Below, in pieces: positions 1,861-56,277 of a stretch of DNA of 64,000 nt (position 1 is the stretch's first letter; the number at the start of each line of letters is the position of its first letter). A program made the position numbers and the translations under genes. Source of the stretch: Morinoia aosen (Eukaryota > Arthropoda > Malacostraca > Amphipoda > Talitridae). The stretch spans positions 47,681,602 to 47,745,601 of the forward strand of contig CM059563.1 of the NCBI GenBank assembly GCA_030386875.1, read 5' to 3'. The notes under the pieces are model-generated. The model was not told the DNA's origin, did no database searches, and was given only the letters and a program-made list of their open reading frames with translations.

Positions 1861-1964
1861 CCCGCATCCACTGCGAGCTCTGTACAACGTCTCCTACACG
1901 CTCTACAGCCTCATTGGGCTTCTGCTGTGTCTCTCCGTCGGGCTTGCGGTCACCTATGCCACAG
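1861..1964 (+). CDS. SLC5 transporter copy 1, exon 10 (partial gene)
   Basis: Penultimate coding exon of an SLC5-family sodium:solute symporter whose 5' exons lie upstream of the window. It is bounded by an acceptor ending at 1860 and a donor GTGCAG at 1965. The 104 nt length and phases (one base completing a codon, one base left over) are identical to exon 10 of copy 2. It encodes the last core membrane helix (ALYNVSYTLYSLIGLL... then YATG). About 27 of 35 residues match copy 2, so this is a diverged paralogue and not an assembly duplicate. Confidence 0.88.
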
Positions 1965-2824
1965 GTGCAGTAATTTCATACGTCATGGAGTTAACTTCAG
2001 AATTCCTTGGCTGCTTTGGTTGAATGTGAAAGATGCCGATGAACTATGAAAAAATTGATTTTGCTTTAAATAAATGATTACTTAACAATCAGTTTGATTG
2101 CTGTTTCCTCGAAAACCTCGTAAGCTGGCACCAAAATAAGGGAAAAACATTTCTCGAGGAGGTACGCATGCACAACACGTTGAGGAGGCTTAGCTAAACA
2201 ACTTAATTAGCAGTTCATTACTTAGCTTTAGCGTCAGAAACCGCTAATTTTTACTTGGATTTACTGTTTGTTGAATCTCCGCTTCTAAAATTCTCCAAAA
2301 CAAGTTTATTGTATTTTTGCTTTATTTATCTATCATTATTGTGCTCAAAAAACGTTCGCTGAATTATTTCTATCATTGAATCGCACAATGCCTGATGTAT
2401 ATGTGTTGTTTTATATTGAGCATGAAAAGTGCAGTCAACTCGTTTTGTTCGGAAATAGGTTTAAGAATTTTTCCATGGTGTATTGTTTGAATGACAACGC
2501 CATATTTTTTGTGTCCTATTTTTCAAAGAAGATATTAATGGAAAACATTTTTGATACGATTGAATTTGAAATCACGAGAAACAGCAGCATTATAGTAAAT
2601 TTTAGCAGAATTTTTATTCGTATTATTAGCGAACGAATAAATTTGGTCCTGATTCATTGTTAAGGTTGAAGAACATCATTTCCATATCAGTTTACTTGGA
2701 TGTATCTTTTTTCTTCACTCTTTTACTGACACTAAGCATAGTTCACCACTACGATTTTTCATAATTCTTTAAAAATAATGGTTGAATCATTGAAATATTA
2801 CAAATCATGTTTTCCTACGTCCAG
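1965..2824 (+). other. Intron 10 of SLC5 copy 1
   Basis: Intron of 860 bp with GTGCAG donor and a CGTCCAG acceptor. Its first 40 bases, including CATGGAG, resemble the start of intron 10 in copy 2, showing that intron sequence was duplicated with the exons. An AT-rich open frame (2376-2663) has no recognisable domain and is treated as chance. Confidence 0.75.
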
Positions 2825-3021
2825 GACCTCAAAATTTGGAGGACGTCAAACCAGAACACGTCATTCTTTGTCTGCGCCACTTGGTTGGACCGAAGCCATC
2901 GCCAAACTCTGCGGGAAAATCTCTACTTTTCAAAACTTCTGCCCCAGAGAATGTCGAGCTCGAGGGAGAAAATCAAGCATCTGTGGCTCCAATATGTCTA
3001 GCCGAATCAAGTGCATGTTAA
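2825..3021 (+). CDS. SLC5 transporter copy 1, terminal exon 11
   Basis: Final coding exon, 197 nt, ending at TAA (3019-3021). After splicing to 1964 it reads G-P-Q-N-L-E-D-V-K-P-E-H and so on, the cytoplasmic C-terminal tail of an SLC5 symporter. Length equals exon 11 of copy 2 exactly. The first ~35 residues are nearly the same in both copies, but the last ~20 differ and end in ESSAC here versus VVDQL in copy 2. Other frames of this exon are also open but do not join exon 10 in phase. Confidence 0.88.
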
Positions 3022-4315
3022 ATGTGGGGCAATGAAAAAATCCGCCTCTCTGTATTGTGTTTGAGAAGCTGCACTAATTGCTGGGGAATGATTTTTTAGA
3101 GCATTTTTTAGTCATAATGATATCTATTGCTCAGACGATGACTTATAGGTACAGCAAAACACTTACTTGACTCATTTCAACTCATGGATTACTTGAAACT
3201 AGTAATTCAGAAACGCTATAAGCAAAAAAGTTCTCTTTATGTCTACTCAAAATTATCTTTGGCTGCAACTATTACTGCAATATTAAAAACTCATGAATTT
3301 CCGGTCCCCTTTTTAGACACTATGAACGCCACTTTACTTGAAGAGGGATTCTTCTCTAAAATGAAAAGTCTTTAGTAAGCTGAATTTAAAAGAAGATAAT
3401 AATGGAAAGCATTTGAAATGAATTTAAAATTTAAATTCGCAACAATTTTTCTCAGCATTTTAGTAATATTCTTGTGTTGTGATTTGAGGAAAATGTTCAA
3501 TCAACTGAATCAAGTATGTAGCGATGATCATGAGCTCATCAGGAAATAAAATCAATTACGCAAACAATGAGCTCAGAGAAGCTTTTGGATCTGATACATA
3601 GTTATCATATTTTATCCCATATTCTCAGGAGATGCCAAATATTCGACACTGAAGATGAGTTCAATAACCGAAATATTTCAGCCATTCGTCCTCTGGACGT
3701 TGTTAGTGTAGTCAGTGACGAGGACAGTTACGGTAATTTGACATCTCTCAGTGGATTTGATCTGGCCGCATTCACGCCAGTCGAATGCGATCATTTATTT
3801 TATTAATTATTTTATTTTATTGATTTAAAATCAAAGACTGCTTTCAAGAAGAATTATTGCAGCAACTGTGAGGAAAACTTTTGCGAATTAAACGAAAAAT
3901 GCAGAACTTGAGTGCAGCAAAAAAGCAGACCGGTAGTAAACATCTCAATAAATAGTACTGAATTAGTTCTGGCTACATGAGTAGGTTCTTTCGGAAATGA
4001 GCTTTGTGATTTTTTTCTCGGAACTCTAATGGTATCGCTACATTTTTGCATTTAAATAGAACTTTTGAATTTTAAACAACTCTAGCATAAACGTTAAAAA
4101 TCTGAGTGTTATGGTCATTTCTATAATTGGCGTGTTATGGTCATTTCTATAATTGGCTCAAATCATTTGGGAGAATTAATTAAAATTACCAAGTAAATAC
4201 TTTAACTAACGGCAAAGTATCGCACATTATGCAGCAAATCTGCAAAAAGCGTCTCACCACCGTAAAACCTGACGAAGATTATTTCCAGGAAATTAAAAAC
4301 CGAAATATATATATC
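3022..4315. other. 3' flank of copy 1 and intergenic DNA
   Basis: The first ~100 bases share short blocks (such as AGCTGCA and ATTTTTTA) in the same order with the region after the copy 2 stop codon, so they are probably 3'UTR. No polyadenylation site can be assigned with confidence. The rest is AT-rich and holds one unexplained open frame (3567-3806). Confidence 0.5.
3567..3806 (+). other. Unrecognised 79-codon open frame
   Basis: An ATG-initiated frame of 79 residues with a mixed, protein-like composition: an acidic serine-rich middle (VVSVVSDEDSYGNLTSLSG) and an aromatic C-terminus. It is followed by T/A-rich DNA. I recognise no domain. It could be a terminal exon, a transposon relic or chance; no splice context decides between these. 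Confidence 0.2.
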
Positions 4316-5236
4316 TAGAAACAGACCGAAGTGAAACCGTTATTTTGTATGAGGCACAAACTGAAACAAAGCCGTTATTCGCATGCGACACAGCCTGATA
4401 CGAAACCGTTATTGACATAAGACACATACTGAAGCGCAACTATTATTGGCATGCGACACAGACTGAAACACCACCGTCATTGGCATGCGACACAGACTGA
4501 AACACCACCGTTATTGGCATGCGACACAGACTGAAACACCACCGTTATTGGCATGCGACACAGACTGAAACACCACCGTCATTGGCATGCGACACAGACT
4601 GAAACACCACCGTTATTGGCATGCCACACAGACTGAAACACCACCGTTATTGGCATGCGACACAGACTGAAACACCACCGTCATTGGCATGCGACACAGA
4701 CTGAAACACCACCGTTATTGGCATGCGACACAGACTGAAGCACCACCGTCATTGGCATGCGACACAGACTGAAACACCACCGTCATTGGCATGCGACACA
4801 GACTGAAACACTACTGTTATTGGCATGCGACACAGACTGAAACACCACCGTTATTGGCATGCGACACAGACTGAAACACTACTGTTATTGGCATGCGACA
4901 CAGACTGACACACCACCGTTATTGGCATGCGACACAGACTGAAACACCACTGTTATTGGCATGCGACACAGATTGAATCACCACCGTCATTGGCATGCGA
5001 CACAGACTGAAACACCACTGTCATTGGCATGCGACACAGACTGAAACACCACCGTCATTGGCATGCGACACAGACTGAAACACCACTGTCATTGGCATGC
5101 GACACAGACTGAAACACCACCGTCATTGGCATGCGGCACAGACTGAAACACCACCGTTATTGGCATGCGACACAGACTGAAACACCACCGTTATTGGCAT
5201 GAGACACAGACTGAAACATAATGATTTTTGGTATGA
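4316..5236. repeat. 34-bp minisatellite, ~27 units
   Basis: Tandem array with a 34-bp unit that contains GGCATGCGACACAGACTG followed by AAACACCACCG. Central units are nearly identical and differ mainly at one C/T position in GTCATT/GTTATT and at CACCAC/CACTAC. The first three or four units and the last one or two are degenerate. A homogeneous core with decayed edges is typical of expansion by unequal exchange. It lies between copies 1 and 2 of the transporter array. Confidence 0.97.
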
Positions 5237-6399
5237 GACACAGAGGGAAGTCCAAAACATAACTGAAAAATAAGCTCATCGCAGAATTGATTTTAAAGTG
5301 AATCCTCGTTAGTAACTGCATTGACAAAAACAACTTAAATGAGTAATTGATATATACATCGAACCTCAAAATTATTCATTTCAACTCTTTCTACCATGAG
5401 CAGTCATCGCCAAGAATTCAGGTAACCACCAATTTCAGGTTGAACAGGAAATGTTGGACTAAAAATCTTTGACTAAAAAGGGGGCAACAGATCGAGATCC
5501 CATCTTCTCCAGCCGTTTTCACAAGCATTTTTTTTATTTACTCTGAAAACCAAAAAATTTACAAAATCAATTGAATTCATGCTACATGATATCAGCGATG
5601 GTTCAAAATTTTACAGTAATTAACCAAATGGAGTTCACACGAGTCTTCTGGAACTTCTAAGGCTTACACAATTGATGAAGGCAAGACGGTTTTTAAATAT
5701 ATCACCTGTACTAATGTCATGTCCTATCGCATGGATTTAATGCATCGATTAAGCGAAATATAAATGACCTGTCATCAGAGGTATGGAAAAGAGGAACACC
5801 GATTATTTTCAAAAAAGTAGAGAAATAGTTTTTTCTTAGTTTTGTTAAAGGAAGCAAGGGGAAACTGATGAATCCTCTGATGAATATGATCATGTAAGAA
5901 TCTTAGTAAATAAAAAAATAAATGAGGCTATATGTGATGACAGTTAAGAAGTAGAAAATTTTTATGTTATGCTGACGGCGGGTGACAAAACATCGCCTAT
6001 AGTTACGGTCGATCTGAATATCAAATTTGACAGAGCAAATTTGGCCAAAAAAGAAACGAGGAGGAACTGCACATACTAGGGGCGGATACGGAGCGTTTGT
6101 TGTACTTTGGGCTCACGGGAAAGGTCATGGTCTTGTGTTGCGAGCACTCTCATATTTGCTCTTTCACAGCCCATAGCCCCCATGGCCATAAGCCAAATTG
6201 ATGTTTATTTCACGAATATTGCGTAAAAAATGAAATGAAAATAGGGCATCTGTACCAATGCGTATTGCGGAGAATATTTTTCGAAAGGGGAGGTACATGT
6301 CAAAAAAACTATTTTGATAGGGCGAGCTCCTAAAAACAATTCAAACAATTTAAACAATTTATTTACCACAGGAGATACAGAGGTAGAATGTTTCTTAAG
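5237..6399. other. Intergenic, no recognisable feature
   Basis: AT-rich DNA without a coding frame or repeat that I can identify. Confidence 0.5.
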
Positions 6400-7488: not shown

Positions 7489-7529
7489 TATTTATACTCT
7501 CCGCAATCATAGCGTGATTTTGGTTCGGA

Positions 7530-8312: not shown

Positions 8313-8362
8313 GTGGTCTGTAGGTTCACTAAAGACACTTTCGGCTGTATTTTTCCATATAT

Positions 8363-9320: not shown

Positions 9321-10489
9321 TTTAGCTAAAATAACGGTAGATACACTTCTACAGGAGAAGCTTGGATAAACAAGTCATTTCATATAATTAAGGGCAGCTG
9401 TAAGGGGAAAAATTATAAAATGAAAAACGAGATATTATTTTTCGGTAACGACTCATCACTCTTTCATGTAGAAATCACAATTATTTTCAATTCAAATTGA
9501 TTAAAAAAGTCTACGCTTTGCTATGGGCCTGGTTGGTTGGTGTACTGTGAAGTTTGCTTCATCTATATAGTGACAGAAGATACACGCAATGATCTCGTAA
9601 AAATCTATGGTAAAATCTTCAACCCTTACGAGTTACAACAAAATCTGTGAGTTGCATCCTTATTTCGGAGTAAGAACTGACGTCTGGATAAGTTAAAATT
9701 AATAAAAACATAAAAACCATTTAGAAAAATGTGTATTTTCTCGCGTAATGAATGAAATCATTGTGTGCTGTATTATCTGAAATGAGTTGCTTCACTGTGT
9801 CTTTCGTGTGAGATGTCACTGAACAAAAATCCACAGTTCATAAATATGACATCTCGATTACTTGTGCTGTTGATTGTTGAGGATATAAACCGGCTGCTCT
9901 ATGGACTCCTATCCAATGTAATTCCATTTAATATCAAGGTTTTACCCATATCAATAATTTATTAACGGAAATTAGGTCGTGGGAGTTATTCAAGCTTAGT
10001 GATTGTGTATTAGGATTTAAGTTGATGCGAGTGTACATTTGAAATATCGCTAAGAGCGTATTATACCCGCATTTATGATCTAGTAAAGGCCCTGTTCATG
10101 AAGAGTCTACCAGGACTCTGTATGGATAAATCAATTAATACGGGAAAGATTTGTAAGTCAATTCGGAAACGAAATTTGATGAGGAGCCATAAATATTTTC
10201 GTATTTTTCATTTATGAAGGATATTGTAGTACATGTTATTATTAAAGCTGTATCGTAGGACCCATGCAGTTTGCAATATCATTTATATTTTTGTGTGGAA
10301 GTATGACATTCTTCCATCCAAAATTCTTGCGTTAACGCAAGCTGAGAAGGGAGACATATGTCGTGTCTGGGAGAATTAACAGCGGAATTTTCTTTAATTG
10401 GATGAACAGAAATTTTTTCAGCTGATTTCCTTATTTTACGGAATTATTTAATGATTTGTGAAATTATTATTATTATTATATAAGAAAAG
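9321..10489. other. Intergenic, no recognisable feature
   Basis: AT-rich DNA with a short (ATT)n run near 10465. No coding or repeat structure was recognised. Confidence 0.5.
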
Positions 10490-11020
10490 TTTAGCCTCCC
10501 TTAACCACGACAAAGATGTTCCAAGAGAGGAAAGAGGAAGGCACCATTTAGTATGGAGTTAAGGGAACGCGGAATCTATGCACAAGGTGCACAGAAACAG
10601 TAAGCTAGGAAAGAAGTTCATGAAACAAGAAAAAAGTTGAAGAAGAAAGTAGTAGGTGCTGAAAAACAGGACACCAGTGAACCGAAAAAAGATGGTCCGT
10701 AACAAAGTTTTAGTTTATTAGTTAGTTTAAGCCTCCCTATCCTCAACAATGAGATGTAAAGAGAGGAAGGAAGAAGGCACCATTTAGTATGGAGTTAAGG
10801 GAACGTGGAATCTATGCAGAAAGGGCACAGAAACAGAAAGCTAAGAAAGAAGTTCATGAAACAAGAAAAAGTTGAAGAAGAAAGTGGTAGGCGGTGAAAA
10901 ACAGGACAGCAGTGAACCGAAAAAAAGATGGTCCGTAACAAAACAAAAACCTATTTTATTACAACAAAAAGGAAGCCTACCTAACCTTTAGCTCGGGCCC
11001 TCACATGGTTCCCCTGGGAT
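10490..11020. repeat. Dispersed repeat, two tandem copies
   Basis: Two adjacent copies (about 10490-10706 and 10724-11020) of a noncoding repeat containing GCACCATTTAGTATGGAG and GAAGTTCATGAAACAAGAA, ending in GATGGTCCGTAAC. The second copy extends into an A/T-rich stretch and a CCTACCTAACC tail. Diverged members occur at about 18865-19010, 34125-34360, 34850-35110 and 48880-48965. It has no coding capacity and may be a SINE or MITE family. Confidence 0.8.
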
Positions 11021-11666: not shown

Positions 11667-11945
11667 TTAGGAATTTAAAAACGAAGAATGCACCACGTAT
11701 TGAAATCATGTTTAATTAAGATTTCACACGAATTATAAATTTACCACTAAGTCAGTTCTATAAAACGTTTCGGAGACCAGCTCCATCTTCAGTTAACAGT
11801 CTGCAAAGATAAAATAAAGAACAAAGTCAGTCTTTCTATACAAAATACATGGGCGTATAAAATTTACAAGTCAATTTGCAATGGGTAAGAACTATTTGCG
11901 CTATTGAGTTCTGGCTTTTCTTTAGAGATAAAAAGCGATTCTAAA
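11667..11945 (+). repeat. Left inverted arm of Penelope-like element
   Basis: Contains AAAACGTTTCGGAGACCAGC and GGGTAAGAACTATTTGCG, both found in reverse complement in the right arm (13182-13457). Identity is high with a few substitutions and small indels. Confidence 0.92.
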
Positions 11946-12240
11946 ATACGTAAATCTAAATTATTTGATGCTGTGCGTAAAATAGAAAAATTTTCTTCTG
12001 CTATTCGGTCACAACACTGCTCGCTGTGAAGGCGGATAGATGAATGAGGCGGTTGGGTCAGAGGTCTTCCGCTACGGTAGCTGACTCTACGGTGTTGGGC
12101 AATCCTAATATAGAATGGCAAAGTCGTCATGCCGACATAGCCAGATGTACACTGTACACAAATAAACTTATACACGATGGATGCCCGCATCCGTTTAGGA
12201 ATCACGTCCTTGTAGCGAAAGAATGAGCCAATTTTTAATT
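11864..12240 (-). pseudogene. GIY-YIG endonuclease domain of Penelope-like element
   Basis: Reads IGSFFRYKDVIPKRMRASIV, then YKFICVQCTSGYVGMT and RIAQHR. This has the pattern of the Penelope GIY-YIG domain: paired cysteines, YVG in place of YIG, and the conserved Arg on the following helix. It continues to a stop at 11864. Upstream it lies one frame away from the RT, with the frameshift inside an AT-rich stretch near 12228-12250. The domain itself is intact, but the polyprotein is broken. Confidence 0.9.
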
Positions 12241-13181
12241 AATGAATTAACAGACACAATGCACAGTTTTACAGCAGGAAAATGACGTTTAAAAAGAATT
12301 TCTAAATCTCGTGACATTTTGTCAGTGTAATCTCCAAAATAGGGAAAAACGCAGTAGAGACTTTGCAGTGGTTCTATCACGGCATTGGTTACGGAGTATT
12401 TCTTAGCCAAAAATTTTTTAATATGTATATTGACAGTAGGAGTAGGGTACCCTTTTTTACGTAGAAAATTTTGTAAAAAAGAAAACTCCATATGAAGATC
12501 TACGTAATTCGAGCAGATATTGAAAGCACGATTTGATAAGGTCTTGACAGTATTAATTTTGAATCTATAGTTACAGAAACAAAAAAAGCTTAAGCCCAAG
12601 CCAGTGAATGTCGCTTTTCGAAATACAGATGAATTAAACGTATGACCACTTCTAGTAACTTTAGAATCTAAAAAAGATGAACAATTATTGGTCTCTATTT
12701 CAATTGTGAATTTTATAGACGGGTGCTTCGAGTTTAAGTAATCCCTGAACAAAGGTGCATGGCTAGGGTCTCTAAACAATAAAAAAGTATCATCAATATA
12801 TCTACGATAGAATTTAGGTTTAAACTCTGTAGGACTATCTGCCAACCATTTTTCTTCCCAATGACACATGAAAATATTGGCAAACGTAGGCCCCAGAGGA
12901 AGACCCATACCGAGACCCTCAACTTGTTCATACAACTTTCCTGCAAAAATAAACACAGAATTCAACACAGAAAGTTCAAGGAGGGTTTTAAAATGAGCTT
13001 TTCCTAGACCTAAAACCGCGTCTGTTGACGTAACAAAAAGGGCATTTATAATTATGTTGAAATAGTTATTGCTAATGGAATGTTAGTAAATAAATTTTCC
13101 ACATCAAACGAAGCCATTGTCACTCGATCTGCATTCCGAAAAGATGTTACCTCCCTAACGAACTGAGAAGAATTTTTAGAT
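12195..13181 (-). pseudogene. Penelope-type reverse transcriptase, truncated
   Basis: From right to left: motif A as FDVENLFTNIPLA (about 13071-13112), then after a frameshift GLGMGLPLGPTFANIFM, FYRRYIDDTFLLF (YIDD at 12789-12800) and FLDSKVTR. These are signature blocks of Penelope reverse transcriptases. N-terminal RT motifs are missing because the right arm begins there. At least two frameshifts are present. Confidence 0.9.
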
Positions 13182-13457
13182 TTAGAATCTCTTTATCTCT
13201 AAAGAAAAGCAAGAACTCAATAGCGCAAATAGTTCTTACCCATTGCAAATTTACTTTTAGATTTTATATGCCCATGTATTTTGTATAGAAAGACTGATTT
13301 TGTTCTTTATTTTATCTTTGCAGACTGTTAACTGAAGATTGAGCTGGTCTCCGAAACGTTTTATAGAACTGACTTAGTGGTAAATTTATAGTTCGTGTGA
13401 AAAATTAATTAAACATGATTTCAATTCGTGGTGCATTCTTCATTTTTAAATTCCTAA
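13182..13457 (-). repeat. Right inverted arm of Penelope-like element
   Basis: Reverse-complement partner of 11667-11945, sharing GCTGGTCTCCGAAACGTTTT and TTCTTACCCATTGCAAATTT. It abuts the truncated RT, marking the junction of two oppositely oriented copies. Confidence 0.92.
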
Positions 13458-15031
13458 CCATGAGATTATAAGCAGATCTGTTTCCATGTATTTAGGATGC
13501 TTTGACACTTCTTGAAGTACCCTCATTTCTCGACTCGATAGCTCAAAATCACTGCATTCTATGGACGAGAGCGCGCATTGATGTGTTTTCAAGTTTACAT
13601 TCTGAAAACGGGAAATAAATCCTGTAGTCACTTTCTGAGTAGTTAGATCGAGTCTCTTACGTTCAAATGGCTGCGTTGTGGCTCACCATGAGGTATTATG
13701 CATGTAGGGAAACCTTTCATGGAATTTCTAAAACGTTTTCTTTAGGATTGCCTGTAAGATATTTTACTCTGTAGCTTGAAACTCAAATGATCGGGACGAA
13801 AGCGGTGAATTTCACAAGTATAGAATTATACGAATAGTGTGCGAGTTAGATAAACTCAGCCTTGTCTTGACGTAAATTTTTCTGAAAAAAATGCTACAGA
13901 CGAGTAGTATATACTAATTTGAGGAGCAAAATAAAACAATAATAAACGGTAGTTATAAGTGAAGGTGATTTGCGATGCCTGAGTCGTTTCATTTTGCATG
14001 AAGCTCATATTTTTTCAGCTCCGAAAGCCATGAAAAGCTTTGATAATATTTCTCAAGGTCTTGTTTTAGGACCTACGACATTATCGAAGGTAAAACCCTG
14101 GTTCAACTTTAAAATTGAAGGACTTTGTCGCGAGGCACTTCCAACAAGTAGGCGTGAAGTGCTGCATAGCCTGAAAACTTATCTTGACGATGTAGCGATT
14201 TAAGTATTACAATTCAGGTCAAACTATTGTTTGTCGGGAGTTTGATTTGAGCAGATGTCTTCTTTGATGGTGTGGTGAGACTACGAAGAGACTAGGTCCT
14301 CTGCCTAATTTCTACTTCTTTCAATTACTTATCCATCTTCTTATTTAAATTTTGTGCGCTAAAACTGAATTCGAGTCATGATTTGTCAACTTTATCCACA
14401 ATGAAACGGATGTTGTATGAATTGATTTTCAAACTGCATACACTTTATAAAGTAACAAGTTACTTGGTTTAGTTCTTGTGTTTCAAAAGGCCTGTACAAA
14501 TTCAAGAAAGTTAATCTGACTTAATTTTATTAAAATCCTCTCAACAAGACCTTTGATGGCATACCTACTTGCCCATCAGTCGTTCATTGTTCGTGATTTG
14601 ATTTATTGTTATGAGCGCGTAGTTGGTGAAAATTGTGAGGTTTCATAGCTCTGAAAAATTACTCAAGTGCATGAAATTAAATCTTTCCTTTAATTAAGTG
14701 CCCATCACCCTCGAAAAAAAATCACAATTGATGAACATTTTATGATTAAATCAAGGTTCAAGTGCATGTAAACTGTGATAATTAATAACTTGAGAGTTAA
14801 GCTATCTTGGCATTGTATAAGCTCGATATTAAACCCCTAACTCGTAAAACGAACTAATTTCTGAAATTCTAACTTTATCGTTAGAAATTCTAATTAGAGC
14901 ATTGGTGTGGCTTTTTAGGATTAATGAAATACCTGTACATTACTTTCCCAATTCTTCCAGGCAATCACTTTGTTTCACTTCTCAATTTCACTCACCTAAC
15001 ACAGCGTCAGGTTATCTTTTTTGGTGGAGCA
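13458..15031 (+). promoter_or_regulatory. Upstream region of SLC5 copy 2
   Basis: Noncoding 5' flank of the complete transporter gene. Two blocks are shared in order with the 5' flank of copy 3: about 14150-14275 matches 52980-53100, and about 14390-14450 matches 53325-53395. In each gene they lie about 0.55-0.9 kb upstream of the start codon. A candidate 5'UTR acceptor (TTCTTCCAG) ends near 14960. No TATA box or initiator can be assigned. Confidence 0.5.
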
Positions 15032-15230
15032 ATGGAGCTAGCCCGCTTCTCAGTGATGGATTACCTCATATTTTCTATGATGCTTGCCGCGTCACTAGGG
15101 ATAGGAATATACCACGGTGTTAGGGGCAACAGAACCACAGAAGATTTTCTTCTAGCAGGTCGCTCCCTTTCACCCGTGCCAGTAACTTTTTCATTTATAG
15201 CCACCTTCATCTCTTCGATATCCATATTGG
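15032..15230 (+). CDS. SLC5 copy 2 exon 1
   Basis: Residues 1-66 plus one base. It encodes the first membrane helix (DYLIFSMMLAASLGIGIY) and the DFLLAGRSLS motif, then a second helix entering SSISIL. Donor GTAAGT at 15231. From ELARF onward, roughly nine in ten residues match copy 3. Confidence 0.92.
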
Positions 15231-18200
15231 GTAAGTTCCACCGTAAGTAATGAATTTTTTTTGTCTAGATATGTTTCATATTTTAAAAAAGTAAGAGAAT
15301 ATAAAGCTGAATGCACATCAATAAGCCTGAGCTTAAATCGTAAATCGTAATAAATGGATAAGTGTAAAAGGAAGTGAAAGGGTTTTGATATACCACAGCT
15401 GTATGAGTTGTTCAGCGCAATGGAACTATCCACTAAAATATTGAATTTAAAAAATTTGACATATTCCTGTTACTTAATCTATTCTGCCTCCCGTATTACA
15501 CTCATATATTATTGGCAGGGATCTCAGATGAGTGGTAGATCTTAATGTTGAATGAAATTAATAACAGAAAGAGGCCCAAAGTAGCCTAAAGGAAAGTAAC
15601 CTATCGGAATGATTTCAAAACTCGTTTTCCTTGCTCTCAATTTGCGTAAAATATGACCGAGGGTTAGGCCAGTAGTTATTAGACCCGTAACTTGGATGAA
15701 ATTATCAATGGAAGTAATCAGCAAGAATCTACGATAAAATTTCTCTCTTAGCTTTGTCTTTGTCTTAGTCTAGTATTCAATTAGAAATTAGCTTGCGTAG
15801 AGTGTGTTTGAGTTCTGTTATTGAGTGTTTGCTAACAAATTGCTGAGAATCATAAATGTAAAAAAATTTTCATTTAACTTGTCTAAAAGAACGAAATATC
15901 ATCAGCATATTCAAGTGTATTCTCTGGTTGTCTTAATAATTTAACTTTAGTTCAGTTGCTAATATCAATTTCGATCGCGTTGATGCTTCTGAATGGAAAC
16001 TTGAATTAGCACAAAAATCTGGAGGTGGAGGCCTCACAAGCAGCATTTTAGCAGAAAGTCCTTTTAACACCGTAGGAAACCCAATAAAAGCAAAACTATA
16101 TTATAAGTTTGGGAACTTATAAAACGTGTGCTTTGCAGGGTACGTGGGAGAAGTGTACGGTCACGGTGTTCAGCTATACTGGTTCGTCCCAGGCCTCGTA
16201 CTAGGACTACTGCTGACTACGCACGTCGTGCTCCCAGTCTTCTACAACCTCAAGATGAGTAGCATTAACGAGGTAAGCTACTCTTTGGGTGACCAGTATG
16301 CAAACTTATCGAATTTTCAGAGTAAATATATTTTCGTTGAAAGTAGATGTAGACCTCTTTAACGACAAACGTGTGTACGAGTTCCCACGGTCCAAAACTC
16401 TGAGGCGATATTCCTAAAAAAGAGAAGGTAAAGTTTCGACTGTCCCGTATTACTCAACGATATGTTAGCTCGTGACACAAAAACGTAAGAGACAAGCCAA
16501 CTGAATAAATTTGTTCGAAAACAAAACTAGATTTGGTAAAAATATCTCCCCTTAGTGTTAGAAAAGGCACGAGCCGAAATTCGGCAACGCAATTGTGTGT
16601 TAATATGTTAGAAGGAAAAACAGCTCAACGCACGCAGCAACTTGCACAGCCCGAAAATGTATTCTAGCGTGTATTGTAGAGAAGGGTAATGAATTGCTGT
16701 CAATGATGTGCGGGTTCGCGTCCTCTCAACAACGAGAAAGTTTAACAAGTTTTAAGTACTGGGCGGGAGTGTGCTAAACAAAATTATCGTACATAATATC
16801 ACAATTTATGAGTATGAGTTAAGATATGTGGGTACCGTAGATGCATTTTCCGTCGAATACAGAAATTTGACTTACAAAAATATTGAACAAAAAAGTTATT
16901 TCACAACCTGTAGGAGTTAATTTGATTTTAGCGAAACTGTGGAAATTAACAGAGAGAAAAATCTGTGGGTTCAATCAAGGGTGCAGAATCAAAAGCTTGT
17001 AGGACAAAATGACTAGGAGCGAAGTAAAATATTTTTTGTGTATATAAACTTAATGAAGTTTTGAAATAAGAATTTTAAATGTGTAGAGATACGCCTGAAT
17101 ATGATTCATATGGGACAAAGCGTACACAGGAATTGGCAAGTAAAAATACTTTTCTAGGACGTGTAAAAACCAAAAAGTTAAAAATCAATGTGTATTACAA
17201 AGCGTTGCCGGTACTATGTTTATCGTATTTTGAGGTTGTACTTCGGATGCATGTGAATAAAAAGCATATTTACCAGTTGAAAAACTAAAAAAATTACTCG
17301 AAAACCACGTCAGCAGAGCAAACTTGTTGCACAACAAATCCAGGTACAATTAATGCGTTTTTTAGTTATCATAATGCTTATGCAACAGTCCTTGCTACAG
17401 AATTTCGCAGAAGCCTTCGTATTTTTTGACTCGTAAAACATCAGCTGGCATGAAATTGAGAAGCAATATGAAAAGAAACTGTTTATAGTAAGCTTTCAGA
17501 AAATTTTAATTTAGTCAGTTCTTGTGAGATTCCCAATACACGATTGCCAAATGTGCACTGAAACAGTATCTTCATTAGTAATTTTACGGGTCAGGTACGT
17601 AAGCCTGCTCGCCTAAACCATATTAAGCAAATGGATTAGATTTTCTAACTGAATTATTGAGAAATAGAAATTCTGAACCTAAGAGTTGGTGACTAATTAA
17701 AGTACTTTCTATGATTTTCAGTACATGGTTCTGAGGTACAAAAGCCCGACCCTCAAGTACTTCACGCTGATCGCGTCGTGTCTGAAGGAGCTCCTGTACC
17801 TCGGCATCTGCCTCTACGCCCCCACTCTGGCCCTGGCCGCCGTCACGCCCATCTCCTCCAACACGTACATCCTCATCATGGGCGTCGTCGTGACGCTCTA
17901 CTCGTCCGTGGTTCGTAAAATTGCTTGCTGCATTGTAGGACCTTAATCATAATTCTGTATTTACTTTCTATTTAAGGCGTTACTTGATAAAACTAGAGAA
18001 AGTTCCCTCAACAATTGTGAAAGAAAACTCTCCTATTTTTTCTTAAAATTTGTAATTGGATAAGTTTCTTTTGTTAACATTTAATGATTATGTTAGAAAA
18101 AACAATATTTGGGATTTGAAAATTTCATGTGATCAGAATTTGAGAATACTCTTCATACAAAGCTCGGTAATGAATCTCCCTAAGCTAGTGAGACATTGAA

Positions 18201-38500: not shown

Positions 38501-39218
38501 AGCGTCAAATTAGCCACGAAGCTGCTAAGGGCTGCAGACACGCAGGGCTACGAGCAACGTAAGTTCATTGCAAAACACGAGAGTGCCTCTTCATATTTCG
38601 ACTGATGGTGCCGTTATGGGCTTCAGAGAGTATATGCACAAGTATTTATGTGCAAGAAAACATCGGCACACACACCCTGAACCTGCATTGCTAGAAAGTT
38701 TGGCAAGGAGTGCACGGAACTAAAATTTAATGGAATGTAGAAGCGGAGTCTTGCTGAAAAATCAATAAGTACCGAAGCGCTTGACTTAATATCGATAAAA
38801 AATCACACCCACACCGAGGATATTAACATTGCGGTGTTATGGAGTTACTCTATACCATATATCTTCCCGTTAACTTGATCGAATCGGTCTCTGATTTTAC
38901 AACGCCTCTATTTTGCGAAATGTTGTTTATAAATTCCAAGATGTTGGAACGCGCAGCTCGGTCTCTTTTGTTTCTAAAGTTGGACTTAATCCTTTAAGGT
39001 GATTATCCCAGGCCCCTGCCAGGCCCCTGTCGGTCCGATGAGTATTTTCTATGTTTTTGTAGAAAAAGGACCCTTAGGGGGTGGACTATTCGGTCCTAAA
39101 ACTTTATGGCGCTACGGACAATAGATATATTGAACAAAAATCTTGAATTTTCGACCCCATTTCGACCCCATATAAAAAGAAAACAAAACTGGAAATAGAT
39201 AATTTCAAAAAATGCTTT
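35532..39218. other. 3' flank of copy 2 and intergenic DNA
   Basis: The first ~100 bases resemble the copy 1 3' flank. Beyond that there are no coding frames of note. A slightly more GC-rich stretch at about 37950-38600 may be a decayed mobile element, with no recognisable domain. Confidence 0.45.
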
Positions 39219-39945
39219 TGTTAGAAATGTTCCTCGGATTATAAAACTGTCTTTGGTTTCGTTCTAGCATAAAAACTCAATGAAGGGATACGGGTTGAAA
39301 TATCCATAAAAATGAACTAAAAAACCAATATATATATGTCTAATTTTTTCAAAAACTAAGGCCTGAATAAAAAAAAAGAAATGGAATAAATTGTGTTTCT
39401 TTTCAAAAGTTACATATTATAGTCAAATTTCATAAGAATCAGACTGAAAATGGAAAATTTTATAATTTATGTAAAAAAAACATTTTTTGTTTGGAAATCA
39501 CAATTCACAGTGTGAATATGAAGTTATGCATGGAAATTATCGAAATAAAAATTAAAACTGCATTCAATTTTATAAATTGTCTATTATATTACACTTCAAC
39601 AAAAAACTTTGTTTATGGCTTGTACCCAAAACGAATTACTTTCAACATTCAAACCGTATCTCCTCATTGAGCTTTGATGATAGAACAAAACCAAAGACAG
39701 TTTTAGAATCCTTGGAACATTTCTAACGAAATAAAGATTGTTTTTTCCAAATTCGAGAAAAAAACTTATTTAGCTTGAAACCCAAGAATAATTTTTTGTG
39801 ATGTAAGGATAAAATATCGCTTTTCACAATTTTTTTTTCAAAATGTTAAAATTGTAAATCTTTTTCGTTAGAAATGCTTCAAGGATTCTAAAACTGTCTT
39901 TGGTTTTGTTCTAGCATCAAAACTCAATGAGGAGATACGTCTTAA
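39219..39945. repeat. Three-copy ~80-bp motif, two direct and one inverted
   Basis: An ~80-bp sequence containing AAAACTGTCTTTGGTTT, TTCTAGCAT and AAACTCAATGA occurs at about 39219-39305 and 39863-39945 on the + strand and at 39653-39733 in reverse complement. Other DNA between them is unrelated. The family is unknown. Confidence 0.8.
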
Positions 39946-41817
39946 AATATAGATAAAAATGTACCAAAAAACTATTTTTCCGTAAAAAAACTAAGGCTTA
40001 AATCGAAAAAGTGACGTGAGTAAAAAAGTTTACTCTCAAAAAATACATATACTGGCCAATTTTCAAACGAATCGGACGAAAAAAGTTGAAAAACAGGGAT
40101 GATCAACTTAACACCAGCGTTTCTGTACTCATATATCACAACCACCGTCATTAGACTGGCGCCGCCAACAGGTTGTCTCCGACACAAAAATGAGAAAGAA
40201 ATTGCCTCTCGGCAGTGGACTTCAAAGAACACATCAGGGAACAAATTTAGCTTTAACTATTGTAGATTAATTAAGGCTACATTCGAAAAAGAACCGTATA
40301 GTCCTCTGGGGCGTTAAAGGGTTAAGGACAATATTTATGATTTTGCTTATTTAAAATATTTACTCGATTTCTGCTAAATAGATTATTGATAGAGTCAAAT
40401 GTGGAACGATGATGCTGGCGTATTTATCTCATTTAACACTTACACTGGCACTACGTGTTTTAATTGATTCCTTCCTACCAATCCCAAGCATACCTTTAAT
40501 GTTATTTATTTTTTTTTCCAGAATAAAGTTTTTTAATTTTCATTTCCTCGTTCCTTCCTCATAATCAGATATCCTTAGTACTGTGGCTATTTTTTATCCA
40601 ATATATTTATTTCCCTTTCGCTTTTCCTATATCTCTCCAAGTGGTTTAAATTCCTCCTTGTGGCTTGTTCATTCTACCTATGAAGGAGAGAAATAAATTC
40701 CGTGACATCGGTTTATACAACATCTATCACTTCTCATTCGTTCAGCAGCTTAGTAATTTCATCTCCGACAACTGAAAGTTTTAATGAAATGTTATTGCGT
40801 TCAGTTGTTGCGAGATGCACAGTTCAATGAAACCCAGTGACTGTATGCACACCCACGCGTTCCTTCCCATCATCAGCTCTCGGCGGTGAGCGTTGGTATC
40901 TTTGCATGTAGAACGTGGAGGGTTAAACTCAAGTTTAATATTCCACGCAACTTTAGAGTCAATTATGGCGAGCAATTTTGAACATAGCAAACTTTACCTG
41001 TATCGTGATTTCATTTAGCTTGGATTAAGTATTTATGAAAATTGAGTTTTTGACAACTGCTTGGTCAGCGGCATTGTGAAAATAGCTGGCGGCTCATGTC
41101 AAGGTCAATGTTCAATACTCTCGTTACAATAGCGGGCCAGTGAAGTACTGAAGTTAAAGACGCATTTAAAAATAAGCAGGTCGATGGTTTCGCGTGAAAT
41201 AACGACGTCGAGCTTGTATTTCTGCTATTAATTGTTACCACAGCTTGCGAACTGATCGGACATGATCAACAAATCACGCTCAGTTCAAAAGCAGTCGCAT
41301 TGCCACTCCTCGCTTACTTGACGAGGACGACGGCGCTCTTGCGATATTGCTAAGAAATTAAAGGTTCTCAAAACCTGGCAAAAACTCAAACAGTTTAAGA
41401 ATAGAAATAAGTGTATACAAAGCCAAACGTGTACCATGAGGCCCAGATGCGCTTCAATTAAGAGTTCACAATGAACTGCGTAGAGGCTGCATTTTGTCAT
41501 TGTGTTTGGGAATGGTATGCGAACTCAAGCTCTTCAGCTTAGCATGCCGAAGGAAAGACACCACGAGTTACTCGAAAACGGTGAACACCAACTTCAGTCG
41601 ACTACTCCAGATTCGTTTAAGTACGCAGTTCGTTTCAATGGTGAAGAGTGAAAGTTCATCGAAATTTAAGAACTGTTTCTAATTACCCGTCGGAGAGAAT
41701 TATACGTATTTACACAAGTGAAAGGAAGTATTTTTCATAGATTTAGCATACTTAATGCGAAAAACTGCAGAGATTTTCTAAAACAAAGTTGAACGCAGTG
41801 AACACTATCTACAAATA
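39946..41817. other. Intergenic, no recognisable feature
   Basis: AT-rich; nothing identified on either strand. Confidence 0.5.
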
Positions 41818-42683: not shown

Positions 42684-43379
42684 TCAAATATTGGTCAATG
42701 TGAAGTTTAATGCAATCACGGAAAATAATAATGCCGATCCCAGGAATCACTAAAGGAACACATTTCAGAACGTTTTACACGAATGACATTTTGCTCGCTG
42801 ATGCGTTATTTTCGAATAATTGAACTTTGAATTTGGCCTTAGCGCCAAAGGAAGCGAGCGCGTGAAACGGAATTTAATTAATAACGGAAGCTATTACAAA
42901 CGTAAAGAGGTTGGGTCGTGAGGGGGAGGCACAGTTCTTCTAGTGAAAATTATACATAAAGCTTCTAACCCACCCATTAGGGTGACGACCGCAATCTTGT
43001 TGACATCGGGTCCAAAATGGCGGCGCCCATGGTGGTCGCCATGTTAGACCCGATGTTAACAAGATTGCGGTCGTCACCCTAATGGGTGGGTTAGAAGCTT
43101 TATTTATAATTTTCACTAGAAGAACTGTGCCTCCCCCTCACGACCCAACCTCTTTACGTTTGTAAAAGGGGGTTAGCTTCCGTTTTTAATTAAATTACGC
43201 TCGCTTCCTTTGGCGCGGGAAGGCCAACTTCAAAGTTCAATAATTCGAAAATAAAGCATCAGCGAGCAGAATGTCGTTCCTGTAAAACGTTCTTGAATAC
43301 GTTCCTTTAGCGATTGTTTGGAATATAATTATTAATTTCTGTGATTGCATTAAACTTCACATTGCCCCAAATATTTTGA
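42684..43379. mobile_element. ~700-bp palindromic foldback element B
   Basis: Almost perfect palindrome centred near 43030 on CCATGG. Arms share AATGTGAAGTTTAATGCAAT, ATTTTCGAATAATTGAA-like, GTGAGGGGGAGGCACAGTTC and GGTGACGACCGCAATCTTG. It has essentially no loop and no coding capacity. Outer parts (AACGTTTTACA, TGCTCGC) are shared with element A. Confidence 0.92.
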
Positions 43380-46870: not shown

Positions 46871-49800
46871 GAGTGTGCAGGTCCTGCATGGGTCGCATGA
46901 ACTCATTGTTGTTGCTTCGAGAATTATTTTCCCGTTGGATATTTCATGCGATATATGATCGAATATCAGGATCAAATCATTAAAATGAAAACTGAATGGC
47001 ACAGAAGTAGTTGTGGACGTAATTTGCGACGCAACAATCGATGCCCATTACTTCACTGTGAAATATCTTAAACTGCCATGTACATAACCTTTTTTCTGAA
47101 ATCGTGATGCACCAAATCTTAAAATTTTTTCCGTGGGTTTCAATAGTGAATAACACAATTTTCAAGTGGGCTGTTTGCATAACACAAGGTTTTTGGACTC
47201 AATTTGTCCGGAGAACATTATAAAATTCTGGATGGGGGTTCATGTTCGGTGCCACCATGCTTGAAGAAGTTAAAGGGGCATTTCGGTTCATAGACGTATT
47301 CTGTGTGCTCTTTTTGATAGTGCTCACTAAAATATTACGATCTTGTTAACTGTTCAGAAAAGCGTTAAAAATGATTAGAACTTCGAAGGTCGGTTCTTTA
47401 AAACTGCGATATGTATGGGGTAGAATTATCCCACAGTTATCGTTAAACATTAAAATTGAAGAGCCTGGCGACTCCGACAAGTAGATGTGAAGTGTTGCTG
47501 AGGCAGAAGCTAATGTCGGCTATAACGCAATTTGAACTTTCTTCAATCCCTTTCACCTCCTGTTTACTGAAGGCTGAATTTGTGTATGTGTCTTGTTTAT
47601 GGAGTAAAATTTTTCATTGTCTTTTTGCCGCTTTGAAATGTCTTGAAATTAGTTTGATTATAGTTTCTCATAAACTTTGACGGTTTGGTTAAACAAGATG
47701 GAGAGCATGTTTTCCTTGTTGTTTATAGTCTCCTTACTTGCTCTGAACCTGTTTTGTTCATTTCCTTGCTCTAAGTTTGTGCTGATGAAACAAGTAATAA
47801 CAAAAGAATTTTATTTCATTAAAATTTAATGTATGATAATATTCCTGTTAGCCCTGTGGATATGTAATAAAATAAAAAGGCAACTGGCCTTGTACATAGA
47901 AATCTCATTTAATTAGCCCGTAACAGATTTAGCTAAGTGTTCTAAATTTTTGTACAATTCCTTTCAGGAAATTTTCATCCCATGGCAGACATAACTACCT
48001 TCAATTTGTTCATTGTTCTTATTACAACTTTTTTCTCTTAACAATAGTAGCACAAGTTACAAAGCCTACTTGGATCTCATGCATCACTTCCATGTTCAAA
48101 ATATTGAAGTTTAGGTGATATATATTGAAATGAAGATCGAATTTTATACTTCGAAACACTTGCCATTAAAATGTTAATTTTTGCATTTGTTATTTTTCCA
48201 TTATAGGAATGTAAGTTCATGAATATTGACCGATTGGTACCGAGCGTAAAATTGAAGTTGTTAATTAAGTACTTTTGAAATTGCTTGCACGGAGGCAACC
48301 ACTGCTTTATTTCAATGAATCTACATCGGCAGCTTTGCAAACTCCTAATAACGCTGCACAGCGAAATATTTGAACCGATTATCGCAGACGAAAAATACAA
48401 ATGAAATCATCTGAAAAGTGAACCTTGAATACATTCGAATACTTTTCGAATGTAATCAATACATTTCCGAATAAATTTCATGCACTGTTCTGAACGGTTT
48501 ATAGCTCATTCGAATTTTTAAATATGACTGTAACGCGTTGAAAAAAGATATAATTTCACATATAAATTAACTTGCTTTGATATCCAGCTCAAATGACAAT
48601 AGATTAAAAATATTATTTCTCCAATAAAAAATGTTTCGACGCAAACGACATGAGTGAAAAAGTCATTCGTCCGTTTAACTAAATAAATCACGATCAAAAG
48701 CAACTTAGATTTGCTTACGCACAACTATGAATCCAACTATGACTATGAATTAGAATCCAACATGATTGCAAGCTTTACATGTAAATCCAAGGTAGTGCAA
48801 TTATGACTAAATTTCGGCTTGATTTTAGTGTACAACGGAATGTAAATTTTTTATGTGAAAATCTGAGTGCTGTAATATGGTCCGTAACTAAACAAAAAAA
48901 TGTTTTATTTAAAAAAAAAGAAAGGCCTACCTAACCATTAGCTAAGGACCTCACGTATTCCCCATGGAAGCGCAGCTTCCCATAGATACACTAGTTATAT
49001 CCCCCTGAGGAGGTATACTGTTAGAACGTAGGCGTAACTCGACCAGTTCGAAGGCTCTGATCAGCACCAGCATGCTCAGCGACCGTAAGATACAGTAATT
49101 TGCGCGTGAAGCCCTCATCCTGTGATGCGCAGTGCTCACAAGTCACAACTGAAGGCATAAATGAAGGACCACCGCACGCTAGTCAGCAACACATCTTTCA
49201 AGCGGATAAATGAACTTATTATTCAACAAAATAGGAACCAATTGCTTGTGACCGACAATATGGTATGGAATGAAGTAAGATGAAAGAAATAAGTGATTAT
49301 TTTCAACAGGTCGAAGCCACCAAACTGGTCAGTTTTTAGCATCCCCATCCTTATCCCGGCTTTTGTCAGCGTTGCAGTAATAGCTGAATGAACAATGTTA
49401 ATTTTCAGGTTTTAGAAAGTTGACCATTAGGCTCTGACTTGCGCACTTTTGAGTCTCTGAAGGCTAAAGCCCTCACATAATGGAATGAACACTGTTTACC
49501 TTTTAAAAGTACTTGGCTAATGATTATTGATGTCCCCTTCCTAAAAATTGTTTTAGGTTTTTTTCTATGAGCTTTTTTCAACTTTTTAATGAGCCTGCTA
49601 TGCATTCCTGATTTTTTCATTTTTCCCTAGGCTACTTCAAGATTCAATTGAGAATGATATATGGATCAAAACTCTTAAATTAAATTCAAAATATTTTATC
49701 ATCATTGCTTACTTATAATTTGATTCTTAGTGAAGCCAAAACTTGTTATCAATAAATGCAGATATCAATATCTCTCGCTGTTAAAAAAAAAATTAATGGC

Positions 49801-52318: not shown

Positions 52319-52480
52319 TAATTTCCAGGGAATGCCGCCATGGTATTATTCTGACTGTGATTTGTCAAAATTTGAATTTTCCGTAAATGCTGTCATTGTA
52401 TTACTCTGACATGATTTGTCAAAATTTTAATTTCCTGGAAATGCTGTCATGGTATTATCCTGACAGTGAATTGTTCCAAA
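52319..52480. repeat. 54-bp tandem repeat, 3 units
   Basis: Three units with GCTGTCATGGTATTAT, CTGAC and GATTTGTCAAAATTT-like blocks, about 54 bp each, moderately diverged. Confidence 0.85.
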
Positions 52481-53889
52481 ATGATTGCCCTTAGCATATT
52501 ACCCCGCAAGAACCCGTGATCAGTTCTAGAGTAGCTAAGACGAATACTAAACTCTCAAATAACATTTTGTTTTGCTTCAGGAGGCCAAGTTTAGCGCATC
52601 ACATGTTGAAGTAGCAGTGACATGCAGCTCTGACAGTGTATCCTACAGTTTCAATTTGGAATTGACTAGTGAAGGTCATTGAAGAACGATTGCAGGATAC
52701 GAAAACTGAAATAACAGCTGTAAGTTTCTATGAATATTGAGAACTACGCGGTTCTATGTAATGACATTAAAATTGATCTTTCCTGGCGCTGGGGGATTTT
52801 ATACCAGAAGTCCGAATCAATAAAAAAAATGGTATGATTTATCGAACATGAGATTTGCATGCAATTTAAGAGTAGTTATGAATCACCTCACCTCGAAATT
52901 TCTTTGCTGTCACGTAACGCTCTTGACTTACAGCGTTAATAAAATATCTTAAGGTCATATTCAATAAAATGCCAAGGGAGTGTGAAGTGGTGCAGAGGCT
53001 CAAAACTTATCTTGGTGATAGCACAGCGTAGGTTTTTATTATTCTTACCAAACCATTGTTCGCTGAGAGATGAATTTGAGCCGGTGTCTTGTTAATGTGC
53101 AATAAATTTTTCTCTACAGAAACTAAGAAATTTCGCTCGCTACCAGGAAGTATCTCGATATAAACTTGACAACGGTCTCGTATACTGCGACGGTGTAGTT
53201 AAACAATGTAGGGAACAGGTATACCTCGTAATTTGTACGCTCTTGATTGGTACTGCCTTTAATTTTATGATATTCCTGCGATTAATTTGTGTTGCTAGAA
53301 CGAATCTTAGACAATAGTTTCCTGTCCTTATCTGCAATGAAACTTTTGCTGAAACTTGTGATGAACTCTGAGTAAATACACTATGATAAAACTGTAGTCA
53401 TATGGTCTAATATGTACTTTTGATCGGTCTAATATGAATATGCGAAAGTTTCATTTATTAGTTCTGTCATTACTTGTTCATTTCTGCTATTTTCCCATTT
53501 TTCTACCAAGGGAATCGTGAAACTTACGAGTGAAGTCAAAATTGGTGAGGTGTTGCGAATATCACTTCAGTGTTGCAGGTGTAAATCTTGGCATAGAATC
53601 TCTAACGTAAGTACTTCATTAAAAATAACACCTGTTGCTTGTTGTTGTAACCCCCTTTGCTAAAACTTCCTCATATTGTACAAGTTCAATGTTAAACTTT
53701 CAAATTGAAGAAACTTCTCAAAAAGAACAAATTTTTTACATTCTAATGCTACCGCTGAAAACTATAATAAAGAAAAACACCTTGTGTACACTATAAAACT
53801 TTTTAAAAACTAATTGTTCCTAATCCCTGCAGCAATCTTCTTTGCACTCAATCCTAAATTTCAGTCATCTCGTACAGATATAAGAAGCC
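52481..53889 (+). promoter_or_regulatory. Upstream region of SLC5 copy 3
   Basis: Noncoding 5' flank. Blocks at about 52980-53100 and 53325-53395 are collinear with blocks upstream of copy 2. A candidate UTR acceptor (CTAAATTTCAG) ends near 53863. Core promoter elements cannot be assigned. Confidence 0.45.
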
Positions 53890-54103
53890 ATGGCTGGTGG
53901 ATTGCTGGAGCTAGCCCGCTTCTCAGTGATAGATTACCTCATATTTTCTATGATGCTTGCTGTGTCACTAGGGATAGGTATATACCACGGTGTTAGGGGC
54001 AACAGAACCACAGAAGATTTTCTTCTCGCAAATCGGTCCCTTTCACTAGTGCCTGTCGCCTTCTCACTCATGGCGACCTTCATCTCCTCCATATCCATAC
54101 TGG
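53890..54103 (+). CDS. SLC5 transporter copy 3, exon 1
   Basis: First coding exon of a third paralogue: 214 nt, ending in the same phase as copy 2 exon 1, donor GTAAGT. Starts MAGGLLELARFSVIDYLIF; the ATG sits in GAAGCCATGG, a good initiation context. Five residues longer at the N-terminus than copy 2. RTTEDFLLANRSLS carries G-to-N in the usual LAGRS motif. Confidence 0.92.
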
Positions 54104-56143
54104 GTAAGTTCCAGTGAAGCGTGGGAATTACATTAGCGCAAAAATTATGTTTCGTTTCCTACAATCGCGAAAAACGAATTTCAAACCACGAAGGATCACA
54201 AGTTAGTCTAAAGTTGTTAAACGAATGAGCTCCATATAGAATGACAAGCTTAGTGGTTAGCATTAGAGATACTGTATGTTCAGTATACTGAACTGCACAA
54301 AAGATACATTTTTATATCACGATCCTTTCTGATTGCCAAGATATCATGGGGCAAATAAGTCCAGTCAAGCAAGTCGACTGAAAAGTAACGAGAAACTCCA
54401 CGGCAATTATTAATTGAAGTGTGCTGAAAAATAATAGGCCTTACTCGAAAACTGACGATTTAATGATGAATAATAAAGTTAAATTTACCTATTTGAACAT
54501 TGCAAATGCAAAGAAACAGCAACAACTTAGGTGTGACAAGACGGAGCTGGACATGGTGATGAGGCACAGAACGGGTTCCAGTCCGAACAGAAAATAAACG
54601 GACCCGCGGTACTTGCAGGGCGGCAGAGAGTTCTGTTCCCTCCCAGACGAGTGCGTGAGAGTTCTCTTTCTCCGAGAGAGGCCATTGTCGAGCAGTTCTG
54701 TCTTCGAATCTAATGAGTGTTCAAGAGCCCTGATATTTCCAGCTGAGTTAGTGTCGGAGAGTTATATTCCTTTGATGTATATTTTAGTGAGAAAATTTTG
54801 TTCCTTCGAGCGAGACGAGTGTCGAAGAGTGAAGCTTTTTCTTCGGCCGACAGTGGTGAATAATTTGATTTCTTCAGGCCAGATGAGTGTCGGAGCATTT
54901 TTTTGTTCCAGCCAGAAATATGTAACATCGTTCCAATTGCTCAAGCTAGACGAGTGTCGAAGCGTCCTGTTTTTTCAGGCAGAGTTGCATAAGAAGTTAT
55001 AGTTCCCAAACCGTAACGTTCATGTATTGGCTCCTCTTACACACGAATTTTTAAGAACAACAGTTCAGTTTGTAAATGAAGTAGAGGGATTTCTAAGAGT
55101 TTTTCCCAGTTTGTACTATCGAGCTTCAACTGCCGTGCGCAAAATTCCTTAAACAACATAGAGAATAAACTACTTGATTAACTGTTATTAACTTGAATTG
55201 TATTTAACCTTCATACATTATTTGTGTTTTTACTAACTTGGAAATGCGACAATAATGCAATCATACATCGTAGGTGAAATAAAGGGCGGAAAGATACCTA
55301 ATGATAAATATTTTAAATTCTAATTTCATGTTTTTTTACTACAGAAGCATAATTGTCGTCCAGTATCGACTGTAAAATTCTGAAAAATTTATCACCTTCA
55401 CTACATATTTGAATAGAGCCAGGGGCAGAACAGACTAAAAAGCTTACTTAGCTATTCTTGTTTTATGATTTCTTTTTGAACAATTCGGTTCAACTTTAAT
55501 TTATATCCTTTGACATAATTATAATGAAATTTGTCCCTGAATTCTGACTTATGAAAGCAATTACACAGCTCACCCACAAGTGCGCCAGCTTCCGCTATCC
55601 ATTTCTTCGATGAAAAATGTTTCATCTGTAGACGAAATGAATTTTCATCATGTTCTCGTTCCCTAATCTTTAAAGTTATTTTTGTTTATTTTCCCTAAAA
55701 GCTCCGAAGCGAAATTCGATGATGGTTTATCACAGTCACATTTGCTAATGGGAATTTTCCAAATCATATCATTTAATAGTTAAAATAAACATAAATGAAA
55801 TTAAAAAACAAATGAACGGGCATCACGTTGTATTTCTGTTCACTTATGTTTTTTTCCAATTATTTTTTCCGTGGTACGAGGTTAAGAATCCCGTTAAACA
55901 ATATAAGTCAGAGTTAAGAACCATACCGCAGCTCGTTATTTTCACCAGAGAAAAGTATCTCCTCCGATCAGTATCGAGAAAGGAGATGACTGGTAGAAGG
56001 TTTACGAGGGAGACCTCTCTACTCTATGAGCACGGATTTCACTCCCTCCCCTCAGGTTAAAAAACTAAAAAATAGTCCTACAACCTGATGCCAAGGAAAG
56101 GCGATCGATAAGTTGTGTTTCTATTAAAACTCTCGCTTTGCAG
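54104..56143 (+). other. Copy 3 intron 1
   Basis: 2040 bp, GTAAGT donor, TCTCGCTTTGCAG acceptor. Holds a degenerate 33-34-bp tandem array at 54610-54995. Confidence 0.88.
54610..54995. repeat. Degenerate 33-34-bp tandem repeat
   Basis: GACGAGTGTCG-like motifs occur at about 54645, 54712, 54746, 54813, 54881 and 54948; spacings are about 34 or 67 bp. A 129-codon frame remains open through it with a periodic DECRR-like motif, probably by chance. Confidence 0.7.
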
Positions 56144-56277
56144 GGTACATTGGAGAGGTGTACGGGCACGGCATCCAGCTGTACTGGTTAGTACCCGGGA
56201 TCGTCACTGCACTGCTGCTGACTGCACACGTCGTGCTGCCAGTCTTCTACGACCTCAAAATGAGTAGCATTAACGAG
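56144..56277 (+). CDS. SLC5 transporter copy 3, exon 2
   Basis: 134 nt, same length and phases as copy 2 exon 2. Reads YIGEVYGHGIQLYWLVPG and ends KMSSINE, donor GTATGC. The following exon is not found before 64000. Confidence 0.93.

Follow-up and report, generated by a model that had tools for sequence, protein, structure and literature searches.

Local tandem duplication probably underlies an array of SLC5-type symporter genes in the amphipod Morinoia aosen

Analysis of a 64,000-nucleotide stretch of contig CM059563.1 from the amphipod Morinoia aosen (GCA_030386875.1, positions 47,681,602 to 47,745,601, forward strand; hereafter the window) revealed three groups of matching exons, all on the plus strand and arranged head to tail as the initial annotation had described, in the order 3' end of copy 1, whole copy 2, and 5' end of copy 3. 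These adjacent, same-strand paralogues have intron positions in common and form a tandem array, which very probably goes back to a single ancestral SLC5-type symporter gene, of the SMCT1/SMVT/NIS branch (iodide, vitamin, and monocarboxylate), that was duplicated locally in tandem. The window contains no N and has a G+C content of 35-40% per 4-kb step. The proposal of at least three genes is borne out as three paralogous pieces, of which copy 1 is represented in the window by exons 10-11 only and copy 3 by exons 1-2 only; the window lacks exons 1-9 for the former and exons 3-11 for the latter.

Complete within the window, copy 2 has 11 exons (15032-35531, plus strand) that join into 1803 nt, stop codon included, and encode 600 residues; its completeness had been anticipated, and its predicted length of 606 residues is here revised. 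The exons, all on the plus strand, were placed at 15032-15230 (exon 1 with the start codon, 199 nt), 16139-16272 (exon 2, 134 nt), 17722-17910 (exon 3, 189 nt), 22098-22252 (exon 4, 155 nt), 23750-23890 (exon 5, 141 nt), 24113-24331 (exon 6, 219 nt), 26565-26683 (exon 7, 119 nt), 29265-29449 (exon 8, 185 nt), 32917-33077 (exon 9, 161 nt), 33803-33906 (exon 10, 104 nt), and 35335-35531 (exon 11 with the stop codon, 197 nt). The joined frame is open throughout the 600 residues, and all 10 introns begin with GT and end with AG. An alternative acceptor for exon 5 was replaced after its joined frame, judged by eye, ran into a stop codon, and the suspicion that a mini-exon had been missed between exon 7 and exon 8 was abandoned, as the alignment of the joined protein with SMCT1 is free of gaps at that junction.

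In copy 1, exon 10 was located at 1861-1964 (plus strand, 104 nt) and exon 11 with its stop codon at 2825-3021 (plus strand, 197 nt), while in copy 3, exon 1 occupies 53890-54103 (plus strand, 214 nt) and exon 2 occupies 56144-56277 (plus strand, 134 nt). The lengths of exon 2 (134/134 nt), exon 10 (104/104 nt), and exon 11 (197/197 nt) are equal between the copies that display them, in agreement with the initial annotation. The unequal lengths of exon 1 (199 nt in copy 2 and 214 nt in copy 3) arise because the first ATG of copy 2 sits five codons later than that of copy 3. The identical intron phases reported earlier hold insofar as the splice positions are common to the copies; since splice sites were placed at GT/AG ends using the reading frame and homology, the agreement in splice dinucleotides and phase is partly built in.

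Sequence comparison of the copies further established their paralogy. Over ungapped alignments, copies 1 and 2 share 76.5% of 34 residues in exon 10 and 71.0% of 100 positions, including the stop, over exons 10 and 11 together (80.3% at the DNA level over the same codons), while copies 2 and 3 share 87.9% of 66 residues in exon 1, 81.8% of 44 in exon 2, and 85.6% of the protein and 85.9% of the DNA over 111 codons. These values closely follow the earlier estimates of about 77% for exon 10 and about 90% for exon 1. At the nucleotide level, blastn matched copies 2 and 3 with E values of 8.9e-77 (exon 1) and 4.9e-42 (exon 2), and copies 1 and 2 with 4.1e-38 (exon 10) and 7.4e-54 (exon 11). When the 600-residue protein of copy 2 was searched against both strands of the whole window by tblastn, the exons of copies 1 and 3 were recovered with E values from 1.2e-10 (copy 1 exon 10) to 3.1e-30, copy 1 exon 11 scoring 6.8e-20, and the best match anywhere outside these exons reached only 0.26; the reversed protein, used as a control, gave a best match of 1.8. 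Copies 1 and 3 have no exon in common within the window and are linked only via copy 2.

The protein of copy 2 is, on its profile match, a member of the SSF/SLC5 sodium:solute symporter family. The Pfam SSF model (PF00474) matched it with 140.1 bits (cut-off 22.8, E 1.2e-40) over model positions 1-405 of 406, and the copy 3 fragment also passed the cut-off with 30.3 bits; the copy 1 fragment matched no Pfam family, as expected of exons 10-11, since the model does not reach that far along copy 2. Ranking against proteins of the PDB placed SMCT1 first (307.1 bits), followed by SMVT (274.4 bits) and NIS (263.4 bits), with bacterial SiaT (93.5 bits), bacterial SGLT (80.9 bits), SGLT1 (58.5 bits), and SLC5A7 (27.9 bits) far below. 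By score, copy 2 thus belongs to the SMCT/SMVT/NIS branch, with SGLT and the choline transporter more distant, and the earlier label of a monocarboxylate/vitamin-type transporter is correct as far as the branch is concerned. The alignment with SMCT1 (SLC5A8, PDB 7SL9) extends over residues 4-547 and keeps the serine/threonine pattern of transmembrane helix 8 (TM8). The two proteins differ in that copy 2 is two residues shorter in the loop that follows the first helix and two residues longer past TM8, and their identity is low, at 36.0% (168 of 467 columns, counted without the C-terminal end). SMVT (SLC5A6, PDB 26VA) scores lower overall, by a gap too small for substrate assignment, and for exons 1-2 alone it is the best match (82.3 bits), whereas SMCT1 tops the whole protein. 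As an identity comparison, the 85.6% of 111 residues shared by copies 2 and 3, set against the 36.0% between copy 2 and SMCT1, places these two copies much nearer to each other than to another subfamily, and so argues against their belonging to separate old subfamilies.

We next compared copy 2 with the sodium sites of its bacterial relative SiaT. In SiaT, Na2 is coordinated by the hydroxyls of Ser342 and Ser343 and the main-chain oxygens of Ala56, Leu59, and Ala339, and Na3 by Ser345, Ser346, Asp182, and the main chain of Ser342 (PMC5931594). The assessment was made on copy 2, the only copy in which the corresponding exons are visible. In the alignment, the Na2 serines S342 and S343, the two hydroxyl residues of TM8, correspond to S346 and S347 in copy 2, the Na3 side chains to S349, S350, and D184, and the main-chain positions to A57, I60, and G343. 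The aligned serines are encoded at the start of exon 7, the first of them being split with exon 6. Copy 2 thus appears to keep the side chains needed for Na+-coupled symport at Na2 and Na3, and it is a complete and probably functional SSF membrane transporter. In the mechanism we propose, the inward Na+ gradient would drive a small organic anion into the cell, most likely a monocarboxylate, for instance lactate or pyruvate, or a vitamin, for instance biotin or pantothenate. The copies on either side, as close paralogues, would have a similar role and would be complete beyond the window and expressed.

Several observations weigh against this picture of an array of working symporter genes. Across exons 10-11, the ratio of nonsynonymous to synonymous substitution rates (dN/dS) between copies 1 and 2 was 0.68 (NG86; bootstrap 95% interval 0.35-1.21), a value of 1 or more being reached in 7.8% of 500 bootstraps, and a maximum-likelihood (ML) estimate gave 0.228/0.240 = 0.95; because of these values, copy 1 could be decaying. 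The 1860 bp preceding exon 10 of copy 1 yielded no exon 9 (the corresponding intron of copy 2 measures 725 bp), and the final 7.7 kb of the window yielded no exon 3 for copy 3 (corresponding intron of copy 2, 1449 bp). The donor of copy 2 exon 3 (GTTCGT) is weak and was picked by homology. Finally, NIS may use Na+ sites unlike Na2/Na3 (PMC10203128), and the kept residues therefore do not settle ion coupling in copy 2.

Since the next exons of copies 1 and 3 were not found nearby, either outer copy could be a fragment, and the most serious alternative, which we nevertheless consider unlikely, is that copy 2 alone is complete and that the pieces on either side of it, the 3' fragment copy 1 and the 5' fragment copy 3, are partial duplicates without function. 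Introns as short as those of copy 2 would have put the missing exons inside the window, and the dN/dS of copy 1 does not fall clearly under 1. With the variable tail removed, the NG86 estimate is 0.43 (0.19-1.0; 2.6% of bootstraps at or above 1). On the other hand, all visible frames and splice sites and the stop codon of copy 1 are intact, and intact fragments would be unexpected given that 27 of the 94 fourfold sites pooled over both copy pairs differ (about 29%). Moreover, copies 2 and 3 are clearly under purifying selection in the visible part, exons 1-2, with a dN/dS of 0.18 (NG86; bootstrap 95% interval 0.09-0.32; none of 500 at or above 1) and an ML estimate of 0.081/0.420. In addition, a mariner-type transposase and a weaker transposase-like open reading frame (ORF) lie past exon 2 of copy 3; they may have stretched this region and so lengthened the distance to its next exon.

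Tandem duplication of genuine genes is also to be distinguished from an assembly artefact or unmerged haplotypes of a single locus, a very improbable explanation to which the sole hint is the presence of three similar pieces in one window. The initial annotation had argued against a simple assembly duplication, and the fourfold differences, more than expected of alleles or of an assembly duplicate, uphold that argument, as do the order of 3' end, whole gene, and 5' end on continuous sequence and the divergence of the exon flanks, which likewise would exceed the usual allelic level. Gapped alignments of the 100-bp flanks at eight exon ends gave 55/94 to 65/90 identical columns (58-72%), the flank taken upstream of exon 1 containing 15 coding bases of copy 3. 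Each flank was scored globally against its own 60 random windows: all eight scored above the random mean, and seven also above the top random score, the exception being the flank upstream of exon 11. Since flanks at seven of the eight exon ends align above the random controls, the duplicates look genomic and intron-bearing. Retrotransposed (processed) copies, which the near confinement of blastn similarity to exons might suggest, can practically be dismissed, as copies 1 and 3 both carry an intron where copy 2 has one and the flanks align as described.

Flank divergence looks to be of about the same degree as that of silent sites, as would suit ordinary genomic tandem duplication, a soft comparison given that gapping raises identity and that the random control is expressed in scores rather than identities. 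Exon-limited gene conversion, which had been suspected from the same blastn pattern, was dropped because the fourfold sites (67/94 the same) and the flanks have diverged roughly alike. We infer that the duplication is old relative to allelic variation and recent relative to the split of the SLC5 subfamilies.

The 5' regions of copies 2 and 3 have a further block in common. A segment at 14154-14264, 768 bp before the ATG of copy 2, resembles a segment at 52982-53093, 797 bp before the ATG of copy 3 (70% identity over 115 columns, E 2.7e-7), so that the two stand about equally far from their start codons; elsewhere in the window, the block gave 12-bp matches only. The block is possibly a promoter or a 5' untranslated exon. 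A possible GATA-type motif was noted in the block by eye only. The same 5' regions also contain a pair of stretches at 10925-11014 and 48874-48963 (91 columns, 81% identical, E 4.6e-17), the former adjoining a repeat family at 10488-10925, and this pair is probably a dispersed repeat.

Tandem duplication within SLC5 is documented in vertebrates, where SLC5A1/SLC5A4 and SLC5A10/SLC5A11 form tandem pairs (PMC9309457); these pairs resemble the present locus in their mode of duplication and belong to the SGLT branch, unlike the SMCT/SMVT/NIS branch found here. Drosophila has 14 or 15 SLC5A genes, some partly redundant, among them the paralogues rumpel, bumpel, and kumpel, and the closest mouse relatives of Rumpel are SLC5A5, SLC5A8, and SLC5A9 (PMC8790523). 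The third gene identifier listed in that paper, CG42235, is named Drosophila SMVT in PMC11764013. These three genes would be relatives of the present copies. Among the titles listed by a literature search, none concerned an insect SLC5 tandem array, which we do not present as absence from print. As it stands, the locus is a fresh example of a family already known to duplicate in tandem, and its description is routine annotation. The dosage effect or substrate diversification suggested by the initial annotation may be involved. A conceivable but doubtful reading places the window at the centre of a bigger SLC5 cluster, specific to the lineage, in which the genes have divided substrates or tissues among themselves, for instance to import B vitamins or organic acids from the diet or symbionts; if the cluster did exceed three genes and the substrates differed, it would represent a local expansion of nutrient uptake in the lineage.

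In the remainder of the window, Rfam yielded no matches at gathering thresholds and ARAGORN detected no tRNAs, and mobile elements and repeats were the other features observed. The Mos1/mariner-type transposase past copy 3 (59022-59976, plus strand) consists of two overlapping ORFs in different frames, with HTH_48 (41.3 bits) and Transposase_1 (81.9 bits) above cut-off, while the weaker transposase-like ORF (62846-63277, plus strand) matched HTH_Tnp_Tc3_2 (22.3 bits) and DUF4817 (19.9 bits), neither match reaching its cut-off. An ORF 3' of the latter (63431-63889, plus strand) matched no Pfam family and looks transposase-like by eye. At 60600-61321, inverted repeats of 58 nt, which are 97% complementary and separated by 606 nt, perhaps mark a small DNA transposon.

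At 42688-43372, a near-perfect foldback of 685 nt forms one long hairpin of -495.7 kcal/mol (mean of 20 shuffles, -172.0 kcal/mol), with arms that are 84% (outer) and 94% (inner) complementary; it is probably a foldback element or one of the miniature inverted-repeat transposable element (MITE) type, and possibly a source of double-stranded RNA. Clusters of inverted repeats at 39216-39972 (arms 82-87% complementary) and 24981-25564 (77-85%) are perhaps MITE-like. At 11667-13457, two minus-strand ORFs (11867-12238 and 12198-13082) lie between 269-nt inverted repeats that are 95% complementary; they matched RVT_1 with 20.9 bits, below the cut-off of 29.6, followed by a mere hint of GIY-YIG (12.7 bits, E 0.17), and we take the region to be, perhaps, a degenerate Penelope-like element. 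Two minisatellites were also identified, one of 81 copies of a 23-bp unit (96% matches) at 30654-32510 within intron 8 of copy 2, and the other of 26 copies of a 34-bp unit (91% matches) at 4336-5218 between copies 1 and 2.

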